A stretch of 26,848 bases of DNA from a virus: positions 1-26,848 of the IMG/VR virus record IMGVR_UViG_3300009425_000077; one strand, written 5' to 3'. The notes below the pieces were generated by a model that was given only the letters and a program-made list of their open reading frames with translations, did not search any database and was not told the DNA's origin. Each line of letters opens with the position of its first letter. Within the stretch, counting starts at the first letter, position 1. A program made the position numbers and the translations under genes. Positions 3,056 to 26,848 of the stretch are shown here, piece by piece.

Positions 3056-3181
3056 CTATAAGGGATTAAACACCACACTCATATCTACATCTCTTCCTCG
3101 ACCAATCTTTTGAATTTCACCTAGGACTAATAGTCCCAAACAAATGATTAATGTTATACCTAGTATATATGGTGGTTTCAC
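3056..3181 (-). CDS. Tiny putative membrane protein (41 aa), GTG start
   Basis: The frame starts with GTG at 3181, overlapping the TGA of the preceding 62-aa gene as GTGA, and ends in TAG. Residues 5-21 (YILGITLIICLGLLVLG) form one strong hydrophobic segment, followed by a basic and polar tail (KIGRGRD). I do not recognise a family. The evidence that it is a gene is the stop-start overlap, the clean transmembrane segment and its place as third in a run of three small membrane proteins. The GTG start and short length leave real doubt. Confidence 0.45.
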   Translation of the reverse strand: MKPPYILGITLIICLGLLVLGEIQKIGRGRDVDMSVVFNPL

Positions 3182-3366
3182 AACCCCATTTCCAAGGAGA
3201 AATTAATGATGGAGAATGATAACATCATGAATCCAAAAACAGAGACTTGCACTATGGTAGCCCAAAAGATTTGTCTCATCGGATGCATTTCTACAATACG
3301 CTCCATCCATCGTTCGGAAGGTGAAAAGTTTACGAATTGAAGAAGTTTTTCTTCAGTGGTTTTCAT
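3178..3366 (-). CDS. Small putative membrane protein (62 aa)
   Basis: Unrecognised small protein. The N-terminal half is polar and charged (MKTTEEKLLQF, SERWMERIVEMHPMR). It is followed by a hydrophobic stretch of about 25 residues (IFWATIVQVSVFGFMMLSF) and a short tail, so it is probably a single-pass inner-membrane protein. A ribosome binding site, AAAGGAT, lies seven to eight bases before the ATG. Its start overlaps the stop of the upstream 53-aa gene by one base (TAATG), and its stop overlaps the next start (GTGA). Holin-like or superinfection-exclusion roles are possible for such proteins, but nothing here distinguishes them. Confidence 0.65.
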   Translation of the reverse strand: MKTTEEKLLQFVNFSPSERWMERIVEMHPMRQIFWATIVQVSVFGFMMLSFSIINFSLEMGL

Positions 3367-3612: not shown

Positions 3613-4068
3613 CTAGTGAATTATTTTCTTTTCGTCCGAGGTAATTGATAGAACATAATCTTCTTCTGCGAATTGTTCTCTCTCAAGTTCTGCGAGTTCC
3701 TCTTCGGACACACCATCCATAATTTCATCTAACTTCTCTCTGATGAATTCTCTAGGAGACGGCATCGAGTTAGTAAGAGGTATGTTTCCATCTTCTACCA
3801 TACCCAACCACTTTGCAGAAGCTTCGTCATAGAAGGGGATGAATTGGTCATTCATGGGACTGGTATGCATAACACTTTCTAATCCTATAGAAAGGATAGG
3901 GTCAAGTGCCAATGGAGCGTAAGGTATAAATGTTGCAAGTGTATTTTGTTGCGAGACACGAGTAAGTTGACATACCATAGGTAAAGTAACCTCAATGGTA
4001 GTTTCTGTATATGAAACCATCCCACAAAGTTCTTGACCTGTTTTAAGTTTTAATACTTCGTATTTCAT
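3613..4068 (-). CDS. Unknown 151-aa protein, possible Sm-like N-terminal fold
   Basis: The function is not established. The first 60 residues (YEVLKLKTGQELCGMVSYTETTI..LPMVCQL) show the strand pattern and the G-x-x-L-x-G-x-V element of small Sm/Hfq-like beta barrels, which is suggestive only. Residues 60-100 are mixed. Residues 105-140 are strongly acidic and helical (REKLDEIMDGVSEEELAELEREQ), possibly a protein-binding tail. The ATG overlaps the uvsW stop as ATGA, so the two are translated together. A TATAAATA late element inside uvsW (4118-4125) could give it separate late expression. Confidence 0.75.
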   Translation of the reverse strand: MKYEVLKLKTGQELCGMVSYTETTIEVTLPMVCQLTRVSQQNTLATFIPYAPLALDPILSIGLESVMHTSPMNDQFIPFYDEASAKWLGMVEDGNIPLTNSMPSPREFIREKLDEIMDGVSEEELAELEREQFAEEDYVLSITSDEKKIIH

Positions 4069-5471
4069 TTTAGTTCGAACTGCTTGATGTCATAGTTAAA
4101 TCCTTCTTCGTTGTATATATTTATACGTTCCTTACAGTGATTTAGAGTGTAGTTACTACCCCCTATGTCATCGGCAATATCAAACAATCTCATAGTGTCT
4201 TTGTCTTTACCTTTTCTAAGTCCTCTACCAATAGATTGTAGATTTCTTATTCTTGATTTTGATGGAGATGCAAAGATGATATTATCTATCTTCTTAATAT
4301 TTACTCCAGTGGAGAAAGTTCCGTATGACGCTAGTATGACGTTATTGTCACTCTTCTCTACTATTGTTCTTACATCCTCTCTATCGGTTACGTCTGTTCC
4401 ACCATATACATAATGCAACTTCTCTCCCAATCTTTTAAACATCTTACCGTGCAATACTTCACCATGTTTTTGAACATACTGGAATAGTACAAGTGTGTTT
4501 CCCTTTAAATTATAAACTAGATTACAAATAAACTCGTTCCTACTATCATTCGATACTAAGTAGTCCATCTCCTCTTGGTAGTTCGCAAGTTTTATCTTCT
4601 TATGTTTCAATATTAGTATATCAATATTCAAGTTTGCGATTGTTCCCTCTTCCATTAAAGCTGCAGTAGTTGTAACTTTCTTAAGAGGCCCGAATAATCC
4701 TTCGAGTTGTAGTCTATGAACTTCTGTTCCGTCCAGTGTTCCCGTTGTTCCAAAACGTAATGCAGTGTTCTTCATCTTTTCGAGAATACCTTTCAACACG
4801 TTTGCTTTAAATAAATGTGCTTCGTCTCCGACAACCATTTTGAATGACTCTAATGTTTTCTTAGGTGCCTTACTGAATGACTGCCATGTAGTAATTGTTA
4901 TAGGTGCATCGAATACAGGTTGACCATGGTAGATTTTACAGATAGGTTCTTTGTATCCGTAATCCTCAAAATCTTTACTCATCTGTTCTACCAGTGAGGT
5001 TGTTGGAACGATGATTACAGTTTTGGTGTCGTAGTATCGTGCTAACATATAAATGATTAAAGACTTACCACTTGCAGTAGGTGACAATAATAATTGTCTT
5101 CCATACTTGGTTGCAGTGTGGAATGCATCTAATTGATAATCTCTAGGTTCAAATGGTAAATTTAAATCTGTAATATTAAAATCTTTCGTCTTGTGTTTGT
5201 GTCCGATAACATCCTGAACACCCTCAAAGTTAAATCCTCGTTCCCTGCAGAACTCATCAACGTATGGGAGTAATCCAATGTAAATTTTGTGTGTTTTAAT
5301 AGAGAATAGGTATACCTTACCATCCCACATTCTGTTTCTATAGGAAGGCATGAACTTAGCGTTGGGAACTTTAAAAGAAAAGAATTCGAATAACTCCTTC
5401 GCAAGTCCATCATCACAATCGACTTTAAGAAATACTTCGTTTACTTTTGAAATTTTTACAGTATCAGACAT
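4065..5471 (-). CDS. uvsW: DNA/RNA helicase UvsW
   Basis: Superfamily 2 helicase that in T4 unwinds R-loops and branched DNA, ending origin-initiated replication and driving recombination-dependent replication. From the ATG at 5471 (468 aa) the N-terminal 100 residues form the substrate-binding domain. They are followed by the Q-motif-like FEPRDYQLDA, Walker A SPTASGKS (about 130-137), DEAH (216-219), motif III GTTGTLDG and motif VI SIGRGLRKG in the C-terminal helicase lobe. I chose 5471 because it sits in an eight-base overlap with the upstream oxygenase stop. An upstream in-frame ATG at 5516 would extend far into that gene. It lies in a recombination operon with uvsY. Confidence 0.94.
   Translation of the reverse strand: MSDTVKISKVNEVFLKVDCDDGLAKELFEFFSFKVPNAKFMPSYRNRMWDGKVYLFSIKTHKIYIGLLPYVDEFCRERGFNFEGVQDVIGHKHKTKDFNITDLNLPFEPRDYQLDAFHTATKYGRQLLLSPTASGKSLIIYMLARYYDTKTVIIVPTTSLVEQMSKDFEDYGYKEPICKIYHGQPVFDAPITITTWQSFSKAPKKTLESFKMVVGDEAHLFKANVLKGILEKMKNTALRFGTTGTLDGTEVHRLQLEGLFGPLKKVTTTAALMEEGTIANLNIDILILKHKKIKLANYQEEMDYLVSNDSRNEFICNLVYNLKGNTLVLFQYVQKHGEVLHGKMFKRLGEKLHYVYGGTDVTDREDVRTIVEKSDNNVILASYGTFSTGVNIKKIDNIIFASPSKSRIRNLQSIGRGLRKGKDKDTMRLFDIADDIGGSNYTLNHCKERINIYNEEGFNYDIKQFELK
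4118..4125 (-). promoter_or_regulatory. Candidate late promoter inside uvsW
   Basis: A perfect TATAAATA on the minus strand lies within the uvsW coding sequence. It predicts a +1 near 4112 and a 44-base leader before the ATG at 4068. Because it overlaps codons, chance occurrence in AT-rich DNA cannot be excluded. Confidence 0.4.
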
Positions 5472-6144
5472 ACGGATGTCCCACCATCCAACATACCAAC
5501 GATTTTCTAGTTCCACTTAATATAGGTGTAACTTGATGGTATAGGAACGAGGGAAATATAACTACTGAACCAATACTTTTGGCAGAATGAGACAATGTTG
5601 AAATTGCATCTGCCATGTTAACTTGTGGGTTAGTCCCAGTCATTTTATCAAACTGGGTTGCAGGTTCTAACCACTGAAAATGTCCACCCTCATAATCGTC
5701 TTGGTCTGATAACTGAATGGTCATACTTAATTTTCTATGCATTCCGTTTCCATAAGGAACTGGGCCTGCATCAGTATGCCATGTATAGAAATCTCCCTTC
5801 CTATCAGGTTGTTCATTGTAAATAGTGTATTGGGGATTTTCCATGTATTCTATATTATGATTCCACCTGCACTCTCTATTTGCCATAGTAACTGCATCAT
5901 TAATCTTCTTGAGTAAATGTTCTGGCATATGGTTGTTTTCCATCTCGAACCACTTAACCTGAGAACTACGGACACTCCAGTCTTCTGTTCCACCCATTTT
6001 TTCACCATCTCTATCTTGATTATCTAGTCCCCCCCCTACTTGTCCTGCCTGGAATTGTAGTTTATCCGATGCACGATGTAAATCATCTATTTCTTTTCTA
6101 GAGAAGAAGGATGGTGCTTGCCATACGTAGTTTTCTAATATCAT
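5464..6144 (-). CDS. 2OG-Fe(II) dioxygenase (PKHD-type) between uvsY and uvsW
   Basis: Predicted 2-oxoglutarate- and Fe(II)-dependent hydroxylase; the substrate is unknown. With the start at 6144 (226 aa) the iron ligands are H123 and D125 (WHTDAG) and H203 (LYHQVTPI), and the 2OG-binding arginine is R213 (GTRKSLVCW). DYEGGHFQW precedes the distal half of the double-stranded beta-helix, as in PKHD/prolyl-hydroxylase-like proteins. AGG lies nine bases before the chosen ATG. The longer start at 6177 would overlap uvsY by 32 bases. The gene is wedged between uvsY (one-base gap) and uvsW (eight-base overlap), so it is co-translated with recombination genes. Confidence 0.88.
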   Translation of the reverse strand: MILENYVWQAPSFFSRKEIDDLHRASDKLQFQAGQVGGGLDNQDRDGEKMGGTEDWSVRSSQVKWFEMENNHMPEHLLKKINDAVTMANRECRWNHNIEYMENPQYTIYNEQPDRKGDFYTWHTDAGPVPYGNGMHRKLSMTIQLSDQDDYEGGHFQWLEPATQFDKMTGTNPQVNMADAISTLSHSAKSIGSVVIFPSFLYHQVTPILSGTRKSLVCWMVGHPYV

Positions 6145-8242: not shown

Positions 8243-9538
8243 TTACAGAATGTTAGTAACTGCAAATTTTCTGTAGTACTGGTTAGTACCTGCAGATGCA
8301 AGTCCGTCAGCTGGTGTAGCACCAACGAAAGGATTTGAAACCATACCATATCTAGTTTTGAAACCGATTTTTGGTTGGAATGTGTTCTCGCCAACAGCAC
8401 GAACCATTTGTAATGGAACGTATGGGCAATAGAACATACCTGCATCATACGGATTAGTTCCTCTATAACCAACAGTTAAGTAGTCTGAACCTGCATAAGG
8501 GTCAACGTATACTTTAACTCTACCGTTTAGAACACCAGCAAATGTATTGCCTGTGTCATCTACGTTTAGAGATGTTGATAAAGCAGGTGCGTAATCTAAT
8601 ACTCCTGCCATTGAAAGAGCAGATGCTACGTCTGAAGAACATAGAATAAAGTTTCCTTTACCTCTACGAGTATCTTTAGCGATTGCATTTGATTCTCTTT
8701 CTATTTGGAACAATAATCCTTTAAATTTCTCAACAGACCATCTTCCGTTAGCATCAACATCTAAGTTGAATGTTCCAGCGGTTGCAGCTGCCTGAGCACC
8801 TGTTTTAGCTTGGATGTTGACATTTCTGACAACTTCACGGTTAATTTCTGCAAGAATTTCTGATGAAAGAATATTTGCTAATTCTGATTCTGCATCAAGA
8901 CCGTGGATTGCTTTAAGGTCTTGTGCTAATTCTAATGTGTATTCTGCTTTTAATGCTCTTGACTTAGCAGTAACTGTAGCTTTCTCGATTGAGAAACCCA
9001 TCTGAGCGAAACCGTTAGAGGCTTCAACATCACCGAGTGCTTCTGCGTTAGCAGTAGACATCCCAGCACCTGTATCACTAGCATAAGAACCGTTGAACGG
9101 GTCTCCTGTTTGTGCGGCAAGCTTTCCGTCTGCAGTAGGGTTAACGCCGGCAGAGTAATCACTCTGTACTTCGTCAATTCCCATTGCTTCAGATTTAGTT
9201 AAACGTGTTCCTGATGGATAATCATTATATCTTGCTTTCATAGCAAAGATTAATCCAGTAGGGCCAGTCATTGGTTGAACTCCACAAATGTCGTACGCAA
9301 CGAGATTTGGCATAGCACGTCTTACTAGGGATATTAAAATCGGATCCCAGTTAGAAACGCCTGTTCCAGTAGCATTTAAAGGTGCTGCTTCTTGCAAGTT
9401 CTGCTCGTTAAGAGCTTTCTCTTGGTTCTCAAGAATAACAGCAGTGACTGCACGTTTGTAGTTGTCTTCGATTTTTGGTAAATCGGAGTGTTCTAGAATC
9501 GGCGCCCACTTTTCTTGTAAGTTTTCTGATAAAAACAT
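8243..9538 (-). CDS. 23: Major capsid protein gp23
   Basis: Main head shell protein with an HK97-type fold. The 431 residues (T4 521) are in the range of marine T4-like capsids. Recognisable blocks are the NWDPILISLVRRAMPNLVAYDICGVQPM region after the propeptide, PTGLIFAMKARY, the central LAQDLKAIHGLDAESELANILSSEIL helix, and the C-terminal KIGFKTRYGMVSNPF. A gp21-type cleavage site (L/I-x-E) is present at LQE50|AAP, which would remove a 50-residue propeptide. It follows scaffold gene 22 by 24 bases with an AAAGGA binding site, and ends at the bidirectional terminator. I saw no late promoter right before it. Confidence 0.97.
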   Translation of the reverse strand: MFLSENLQEKWAPILEHSDLPKIEDNYKRAVTAVILENQEKALNEQNLQEAAPLNATGTGVSNWDPILISLVRRAMPNLVAYDICGVQPMTGPTGLIFAMKARYNDYPSGTRLTKSEAMGIDEVQSDYSAGVNPTADGKLAAQTGDPFNGSYASDTGAGMSTANAEALGDVEASNGFAQMGFSIEKATVTAKSRALKAEYTLELAQDLKAIHGLDAESELANILSSEILAEINREVVRNVNIQAKTGAQAAATAGTFNLDVDANGRWSVEKFKGLLFQIERESNAIAKDTRRGKGNFILCSSDVASALSMAGVLDYAPALSTSLNVDDTGNTFAGVLNGRVKVYVDPYAGSDYLTVGYRGTNPYDAGMFYCPYVPLQMVRAVGENTFQPKIGFKTRYGMVSNPFVGATPADGLASAGTNQYYRKFAVTNIL

Positions 9539-9562: not shown

Positions 9563-10882
9563 CTAACCTAATGGTTGAAGTTTTGTTATTGCTGAAGAGT
9601 ACTTGGCCATTGTTGGGTCAACTGTACTTGAAGCTTTCACTTCAAATTCATTATCACCTTCAACAACTAAGGTCTCAGTCACTACCTTTTCACCTTCTGC
9701 AGGGAAGTAGGCACTTTTGATTTCTGCAATCTTCTCTTGGAAGTCTGCTTCGTCTTTGTAATCTACTCCTTCAGCAAGTGAAGATAGTTTTTCTTTTTGC
9801 GTATCAGTCAAGTCCGAAGACGCTTCTGACACAACATTTCCTCTCTTGAGTGTATCTAATTCTTCAACGATTGCCATGTTTTGAGACACTTCACCGTCTA
9901 GTTTAGCTTCCATCTCTTCGAGACGATTTGCGAGTTCATCGATAACATCATACTTATCTTCAGGAACGTCAACATAATGTTCTACGAACAATGTTTTCAA
10001 ACCTTCGATAAAGTTTTCTGTCATTTCTGACCTCAAACCACGTTCTATTGCAAGTTCGTTTTCTTTCGTCCACTCTTCTGCACAATAGGTTAAGTATTTG
10101 TCAACTGCAACCGTAAGGTCACCTTTAACAGAATTAACTGTAGTTTTTAATTCTTCTTGATATTTAGCATCAAGTTCTTCTTTAACTTCCTGTACTTTTG
10201 ATTGTACAGCAGCCTTGAAGATTGTTTTTGCTTTTTCAGCATTTTCTTCTGAAAGGTCTAATGCTTCTGAAATTGCAGATAGGTCGTCATCTATTTCAAT
10301 TTCAACTAATGAAGACTCAACATCTGCAGAAACTTCTTCTGAGACGGCATCTTCTAATACTTCTTCTTTAGACACTTCTTCAGACATAGACTCTAGGATT
10401 TCTCCTACTTTGTCTTCGTCCATAGATTTTAAAGACTCAACAACTGCTCTTGCAACTTCTGCTTTAGTCAAACTCTCGTCCTCTTCAGACTCAGATATTG
10501 TAGACAATACTGATTGAAGTTCTTCCTTAGTCATTTCCTTCATGTTGTTGACTATAGCTTTTATTGATTCCATCTTGGAAGGTTTAGTGTCTTCTTTGAT
10601 TTTCTCTTGCTTTTCAGCCTTACCAGCACCTTTCTTCTGAGGGTCACCTTCGTTTGAAGGGACTTTCTTCTCAGCGTCTTTTACTGACTTAACTGCTTTG
10701 TCAACAGGATTGGTTTCAACTGGGACGACTTCCGCTTTACCTGCATCAATAGATGCGGCATCGGATGAACCTTGTTTGACTGGTTTTTTATCACCTTTTT
10801 CAGCTTTAGCGTCAGGTTGTCCTGCCTCTAATACTGTTTCTACAGTTTCATCAACTGTAAGGTTATTTTCTTACTCTGCCAT
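9563..10882 (-). CDS. 22: Prohead core scaffold protein gp22, interrupted by an in-frame TAA at codon 4
   Basis: Main scaffolding core of the prohead, digested by gp21 during maturation. The coding frame begins at ATG 10882, six bases after AGGAG and behind a late promoter, but reads Met-Ala-Glu-TAA (10873-10871). After the TAA it stays open for 435 codons. Residues 5-103 are Lys/Glu/Ala/Pro-rich with no start codon. From Met104 (10573) come acidic helices (SEEVSKEEVLEDAVSEEV) and a long coiled coil, ending MAKYSSAITKLQPLG. T4 gp22 is only 269 aa. The fallback ATG at 10573 has no good binding site and would give 336 aa. A point mutation or sequencing error of a CAA, GAA or AAA codon is the simplest reading. 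Confidence 0.85.
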
Positions 10883-10923
10883 TTTTTTCTCCTGTTTTAA
10901 TACTTTAATGTATTACTTTATTT

Positions 10924-10933: not shown

Positions 10934-11584
10934 TTATAGACTCTCAACGAACCTTTTCCATAGATTTAATTTAGTTTCTTCTAATTTATTTAGTCGTGCA
11001 GATTTAAGAGTTCTTTGGAAGTCTTCTGCTTGGTGAGCAGTTAATATTCCATCGGCACCCATAATCCACTCGACACCTTCCATTATTCCTTCGACAAACG
11101 CCTCAGGAGCAGATGGGTCTGCAACGATATCGCCTGCAGTTGCAAGTTGAAAATCGTCTTTAACATATTGTGCATTTCCCTTTTGTTCTAGTGAACCAAG
11201 TCCTCTAGAAGATACTCCGAGTTTTGCACCATCATTGATAAGAGCTTTTACTATCTCACCATTTGGAGTACTTAAAATCTTTGCTTTTCCAACATAGTTC
11301 TTACCTTCTAGGGTAAGTGATTGGATAAGATGCGATACTTTATCTAAATTAATAGTTGGCCCTTCAGGGTGACCCAATTCGCCAAATGCACGAGACTTTT
11401 CAACAAACTCTTTGTTATAACGGTCTACTTCCTTCTCCATAATCGCTTTTGGATAGACTCTACCGTTTCTGTTTTTGATATCCGATTGCATGAAGACACC
11501 TTCTATGAAGTAGTCTTTTTTACCATCTTTTGATTCGGTGATAATTGGTGCAATTGAATCGTTAAATTCAGCTATTAATTTCAT
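10934..11584 (-). CDS. 21: Prohead core protease gp21
   Basis: Serine protease of the herpesvirus-assemblin-like U35 type that cleaves scaffold and capsid propeptides after L/I-x-E. The 216 residues (T4 212) include FGELGHPEGP with the likely catalytic H72, KLGVSSRGLGS with the catalytic serine at 125 or 126, and AGDIVADPSAPEAF with an acidic residue near 152-156 completing the triad. FIEGVFMQSDIKNRNGRVYP at residues 26-45 is typical of the family N-terminus. The start overlaps the 100-aa gene by 17 bases. The order 20-67-x-21-22-23 is that of T4. Confidence 0.96.
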   Translation of the reverse strand: MKLIAEFNDSIAPIITESKDGKKDYFIEGVFMQSDIKNRNGRVYPKAIMEKEVDRYNKEFVEKSRAFGELGHPEGPTINLDKVSHLIQSLTLEGKNYVGKAKILSTPNGEIVKALINDGAKLGVSSRGLGSLEQKGNAQYVKDDFQLATAGDIVADPSAPEAFVEGIMEGVEWIMGADGILTAHQAEDFQRTLKSARLNKLEETKLNLWKRFVESL

Positions 11585-25795: not shown

Positions 25796-26848
25796 TTAAC
25801 TAGATACTGGTGTTGCAGGCCATTGTTGCGACAATGCATTATCCCATCTAATTACAGGTGTCTGACCTTGTCTAGCATAAGTGAACGGAGACCTGTTCTG
25901 ATAAGTGAACGGAGTCTGACCTTGTCGGGCGTAAGTTCCTGGCTGTCTGCTCTGATAAGTCGTAGGTGTTTGACCTTGTCTAGCATAAGTAGTCGGGTTC
26001 TGATTCGAATATGTAGAAGGCGACTGACCTTGTCTAGCATAAGTAAACGGTGTTCTATGTTGATAAGTGAACGGTGTTTGACCCTGTCTTGCATATGTTC
26101 CTGGCTGTCTGTTCTGATATGTAGAAGGTGTTTGACCTTGGTTCGAATATGTTCCTGGCTGTTGTGCCTGTCTAGCATAAGTAAACGGTGTTCTATGTTG
26201 ATAAGTGAACGGTGTTTGACCCTGAGTTGCATATGTAGCAGGTGTTTGTGCCTGTCTAGCATAAGTAAACGGTGTTCTATTACTGTATGTAAATGGAGTC
26301 TGACCTTGTGTAGCATATGTTGTAGGTTGGTTAGCAATATACGGGTATGTTACAGGTGTTCTATTACTGTATGTGAACGGTGTTTGACCTTGTCTAGCAT
26401 AAGTAGTAGGTTGGTTAGCAATATACGGATATGTAAACGGTGACCTATTACTATATGTAAATGGAGTCTGACCTTGTCTAGCATAAGTAGTAGGTTGGTT
26501 AGCAATATACGGATATGTAAACGGTGACCTATTACTATATGTAAACGGTGTTTGTCCTTGTCTTGCATATGTAAACGGTGCCCTATTACTATATGTAAAT
26601 GGAGTCTGACCTTGTCTAGCATAAGTAAACGGTGTTCTATGTTGATAAGTGAACGGTTGTCTTGCAGGTGCTTGATAAGTAAACGGTGTCTGACCCTGTC
26701 TTGCATATGTATATGGTGTTCTATTACTATATGTAAACGGGGTTCTTGCAGGTGCTTGGTATGTAAACGGCGACCTTGCACTGTATGTAAATGGTTGTCT
26801 TGCGTTTCCTATAAACGGTTGTTGTGCGTTAGCAGGATACGTTGCAGG
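25796..26848 (-). CDS. Tyr/Pro/Arg/Gln-rich tandem-repeat protein, N-terminus outside window
   Basis: The minus-strand frame is open from the right edge to a TAA at 25798-25796 (350 residues visible). Nearly all of it is built from P-x-T-Y steps; I count about 35. They are linked by alternating ARQGQT and SNRT, QHRT or QNRS spacers, so the common unit is ARQGQTPFTYSNRTPFTY (18 residues, 54 bases). PYIANQPTTY variants add ten-residue steps. The repeats contain no Lys, Asp or Glu; Arg is the only charged residue. The C-terminus leaves the repeat (VIRWDNALSQQWPATPVSS). A fibrous virion or adhesive part is the likeliest role, but no domain proves it. Confidence 0.88.
   Translation of the reverse strand, partial: PATYPANAQQPFIGNARQPFTYSARSPFTYQAPARTPFTYSNRTPYTYARQGQTPFTYQAPARQPFTYQHRTPFTYARQGQTPFTYSNRAPFTYARQGQTPFTYSNRSPFTYPYIANQPTTYARQGQTPFTYSNRSPFTYPYIANQPTTYARQGQTPFTYSNRTPVTYPYIANQPTTYATQGQTPFTYSNRTPFTYARQAQTPATYATQGQTPFTYQHRTPFTYARQAQQPGTYSNQGQTPSTYQNRQPGTYARQGQTPFTYQHRTPFTYARQGQSPSTYSNQNPTTYARQGQTPTTYQSRQPGTYARQGQTPFTYQNRSPFTYARQGQTPVIRWDNALSQQWPATPVSS
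26385..26545 (-). repeat. Perfect 77-bp direct repeat, offset 84 bp, within the repeat gene
   Basis: Bases 26385-26461 recur without a mismatch at 26469-26545. The period of 84 bases equals 28 codons (one ARQGQTPFTY-SNRSPFTY-PYIANQPTTY set). Other units in the gene differ at many synonymous sites, so this pair looks like a recent duplication. Confidence 0.85.

Follow-up and report, generated by a model that had tools for sequence, protein, structure and literature searches.

An in-frame TAA at codon 4 of a T4-type head scaffold gene, private to one metagenome contig

Gene 22 in T4 and in marine Kyanoviridae

The major protein of the T4 prohead core is gp22, with about 580 copies (PMC9958956), and its gene is one of the essential head genes (PMC9026906). 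T4-type gp22 of the family studied here is also encoded by marine Kyanoviridae (e.g. Pelagibacter phage Mosig EXVC030M, Methylophilales phage Melnitz, and the cyanophages P-SSM2 and Syn19), in the same place between gp21 and gp23. The window, by which we mean the whole stretch of 26,848 bases that was analysed, is a virus record that carries such a gene in such a place, and its nearest annotated phages include Pelagibacter phages Mosig and HTVC008M and Methylophilales phage Melnitz, all of them Kyanoviridae. The gp22 proteins of Mosig (410 amino acids) and Melnitz-2 (392 amino acids) are similar in length to that of the window. What sets the window's copy apart from the marine Kyanoviridae gp22 compared with it is a stop at codon 4, found in the window's copy only.

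One of these phages offers a partial parallel. In the deposited genome of the cultured HTVC008M (NC_020484; L173:3328-4607, minus strand), gene 22 is annotated as two genes, one for a 116-residue hypothetical protein (I899_gp089) and one for a 306-residue scaffold protein; the first of these matches the N-terminal part of gp22 from Mosig (E 1.7e-13) and from Melnitz (E 2.5e-11). The break falls at a run of A that differs by one base in length from that of two near-identical metagenome contigs, L337 and L338, and in both of these a single unbroken frame leads from an upstream start into the scaffold. HTVC008M thus resembles the window in that a difference of one base, not shared by near-identical contigs, breaks gene 22 in a single record, whereas the two interruptions differ in kind, that of HTVC008M being a difference in A-run length that shifts the frame and that of the window a substitution that gives a stop. 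The GTA AAA AAG context at the HTVC008M break fits a known slippery motif; the unbroken frame in the closest relatives argues against programmed frameshifting. Judged against those contigs, the split in HTVC008M probably goes back to a mistake in the reference sequence or to an isolated mutation.

Gene 22 and its neighbours in the window

The gene with the TAA at codon 4 is a real T4-type gp22. Residues 5-439 match Pfam model PF25623 (T4_CASP), which describes the T4-like capsid assembly scaffolding protein, with E 2.1e-67 and 227.7 bits against a cut-off of 27 bits, and PHROG 237 (head scaffolding protein) with E 6.8e-71. The gene occupies the position expected of a T4-type gp22, between the genes for the gp21 protease and the gp23 capsid protein (Table 1), and profile matches place the gp20 portal among its neighbours as well. 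Counted as though codon 4 were a sense codon, the gene has 439 codons and a terminal TAG.

The preliminary description had reported AGGAG, six A and ATG GCA GAG TAA, followed by 435 open codons leading into gp22, and direct reading of the minus strand confirms this: ATG at 10882-10880, GCA at 10879-10877, GAG at 10876-10874 and TAA at 10873-10871, after which the frame stays open for 435 codons, to the TAG at 9565-9563. The frame that follows the ribosome-binding site is therefore broken at codon 4 in the window, and it is uninterrupted in 74 relatives. It had also been stated that codons 5-103 contain no ATG, GTG or TTG; this too is so, the first later start being the ATG of codon 104 at 10573.

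Table 1. Features of the gene 22 region, in window coordinates
Feature	Position	Strand	Basis
gp21 prohead protease, neighbour of gene 22	10934..11584	minus	Pfam Peptidase_S77, PHROG 207
Shine-Dalgarno AGGAG, A6 and start ATG of gene 22	10880..10893	minus	direct reading; conserved in relatives
TAA at codon 4, private to the window contig; TTA (Leu) in relatives	10871..10873	minus	74/74 distinct relatives; near-identical contigs L124, L132, L135
ATG of codon 104, first possible in-frame restart, without Shine-Dalgarno	10571..10573	minus	sequence reading, relatives
Gene 22, head scaffold (prohead core) protein	9563..10882	minus	Pfam T4_CASP, PHROG 237, gp21/gp23 neighbours, full length in 74 relatives
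gp23 major capsid protein, neighbour of gene 22	8243..9538	minus	Pfam Gp23, PHROG 138

Codon 4 in relatives and substitutions private to the window

Relatives were gathered in two ways, as 80 loci from a protein search of the IMG/VR viral contigs and as 93 stretches from a search with a start-site pattern; the two sets overlap in many contigs, and were collapsed to 74 distinct full-length gp22 genes, the window excluded. An alignment of gp22 from related phages at codon 4 had been proposed in the preliminary description, with CAA, GAA or AAA as the guessed sense codons. The guess was wrong, as codon 4 is TTA (Leu) in all 74 genes, none of which has a stop there; TAA occurs in the window only. 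All 137 loci aligned at base 10872 (a count that includes repeat fetches of the same contigs) have another base than the window. A scan of 2.9 million viral contigs, which may not have included the record of the window itself or those very close to it, gave no match to a gene 22 start followed by TAA or TGA. Two kinds of sequence were set aside: the only match to another TAA pattern, 19 bases long, lies in IMGVR_UViG_643886199_000009 amid flanks unlike those of the window and is a chance match, and six sequences with TAT at codon 4 (MTDYERTVKVLE, a 73-residue frame where complete) belong to another small gene that is not gp22. Every member of the gp22 group has the Shine-Dalgarno, the ATG and Leu4 in frame. 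The first codons, ATG RCA GAK TTA GAA (10868-10882 in the window, and in the relatives), are nearly invariant as DNA, and Leu4 is spelled in one way only, TTA, in 74 of 74 genes.

Three contigs that span the codon-4 site are almost the same as the window: L132 (99.89% identical over 6,273 bases), L135 (99.42% over 7,984) and L124 (99.25% over 6,672). The stop is private to the window's contig, in a gene otherwise identical to those of two other contigs, since within gp22 base 10872 is the sole difference from L124 and L135; L132 differs at that base and at codon 2. The identity with L124 and L135 rules out decay of the gene.

Relatives more than 99% identical to the window (these three, L177 and L257) cover 26,399 of its 26,848 bases, which allows substitutions seen in the window and in no relative to be counted. 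The count takes in about 25.8 kb and omits the tandem-repeat gene (25796 onwards), which does not align reliably. It gives eight such substitutions, at 2717, 3327, 5453, 10872, 14297, 16125, 20312 and 22414, made up of three amino-acid changes, one stop, three silent changes and one non-coding change; no private insertion or deletion was found outside the repeat gene. The amino-acid changes are D to G at 2717 (gene 2344-2937), L to F at 3327 (gene 3178-3366) and V to I at 5453 (gene 4065-5516), and the aligned relatives show no variation at these positions (26, 7 and 22 loci, respectively); such changes may be additional errors or mutations of recent origin. Some of the private substitutions are probably real variants. 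Of the 3,933 single substitutions possible in gene 22, 217 (5.5%) create a stop, and the chance of at least one stop among eight random substitutions is about 36% (1 - 0.945^8), if all are assumed to be coding and unselected. With eight private substitutions and this rate of stop creation, one nonsense change is unremarkable.

Readings of the codon-4 stop

Comparison with the relatives leaves little doubt that the TAA at codon 4 is either a sequencing error at one base or a stray, dead-end mutation, and that it is no mark of special reading of the gene. Both options had been left standing in the preliminary description. The first of them, an error or nonsense mutation, is borne out by a stop that is unique to the contig and by the Leu codon in near-identical contigs. 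The other, special initiation or recoding, is not, given that 0 of 74 relatives have the stop, that the usual start signals and Leu4 are universal, and that codons 5-103 are conserved as protein in frame.

The TAA probably stems from one wrong base introduced into the window contig during sequencing or assembly. The source phage population would then have an intact gp22 made from the annotated ATG, with Leu at codon 4 as in all relatives, and no phage genome would have carried the wrong base. Because gp22 is essential in T4 (PMC9026906), a lineage with a stop at codon 4 should not persist. A point against an error is the nature of the change: as a substitution, with no gain or loss of a base in a homopolymer, it bears no clear error signature.

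The DNA molecule or molecules that were assembled could also have truly carried the TAA, as a nonsense mutation and a transient dead end; we regard this as possible, if rather unlikely. A defective genome might have been complemented, and so packaged, during a mixed infection, or low coverage or amplification from few molecules might have captured a rare mutant. Unfiltered young mutations would be expected to give private substitutions of the kind seen elsewhere in the window, some of which change amino acids at uniform positions, but a consensus contig normally gives the majority base, and three near-identical contigs are without the stop. Since some of the private substitutions are probably real variants, a real mutation and an error are indistinguishable by sequence alone.

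It is improbable that the stop reflects a tolerated truncation, in which a restart at ATG104 would give a scaffold of 336 residues with the Pfam domain entire but without the N-terminal segment; that the variant is both real and viable, with the phage making its shortened scaffold from ATG104, is more doubtful still. All members of the group have ATG104, and the Pfam match begins well downstream of it, but the internal methionines 114, 117 and 287 are equally invariant, and no ribosome-binding site is evident: between -16 and -4 of ATG104, a 4-base match to the Shine-Dalgarno is found in 0 of 74 relatives and a 3-base match in 3 of 74. For these reasons an internal start at codon 104 was rejected, and a restart there is unlikely to replace the normal product. 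Selection also weighs against a dispensable segment, with dN/dS among 22 close relatives at 0.185 for codons 2-103 versus 0.160 for codons 104-439. Such purifying selection, like that on the rest of gene 22, suggests that the family translates codons 2-103 from the first ATG, including the stretch after the window's stop (codons 5-103). The gp22 of Mosig and of Melnitz reach upstream to a position similar to that of the full-length gene 22. If a shortened scaffold were nevertheless made, at least one natural lineage could do without an N-terminal segment of about 100 residues (the N-terminal fifth).

Programmed readthrough or suppression of the TAA has scarcely any likelihood: the frame beyond the stop is intact and conserved, but no relative carries the stop (nor did the pattern scan find it), so readthrough is not a property of gene 22 and is ruled out as a trait of the lineage, TAA ends more of the window's genes than any other stop codon, and no tRNA gene lies within these 26,848 bases, which are the smaller part of the phage genome. 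General reassignment of TAA, rightly judged unlikely at the outset, is ruled out by the TAA terminators of neighbouring genes, as the 30 minus-strand genes that end in the window do so with TAA in 17 cases, TGA in seven and TAG in six.

The case for an error or stray mutation carries a caution, namely that a single-base difference in one metagenome contig can mimic recoding of an essential gene. The caution is strengthened by the cultured reference genome HTVC008M, where gene 22 is also split by a one-base difference.

Two observations concern other genes of the window. The region 25796-26848 encodes a repeat protein of short units such as TPFTYSNRTPFTYARQGQ, without a Pfam match and open at the contig end; the end of the contig probably falls within the repeat. 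In the N-terminal region of gp21 (11375-11526), changes relative to L124 and L135 are dense and many are non-synonymous, while the flanking DNA is nearly identical; by this pattern it looks like a recombined patch.
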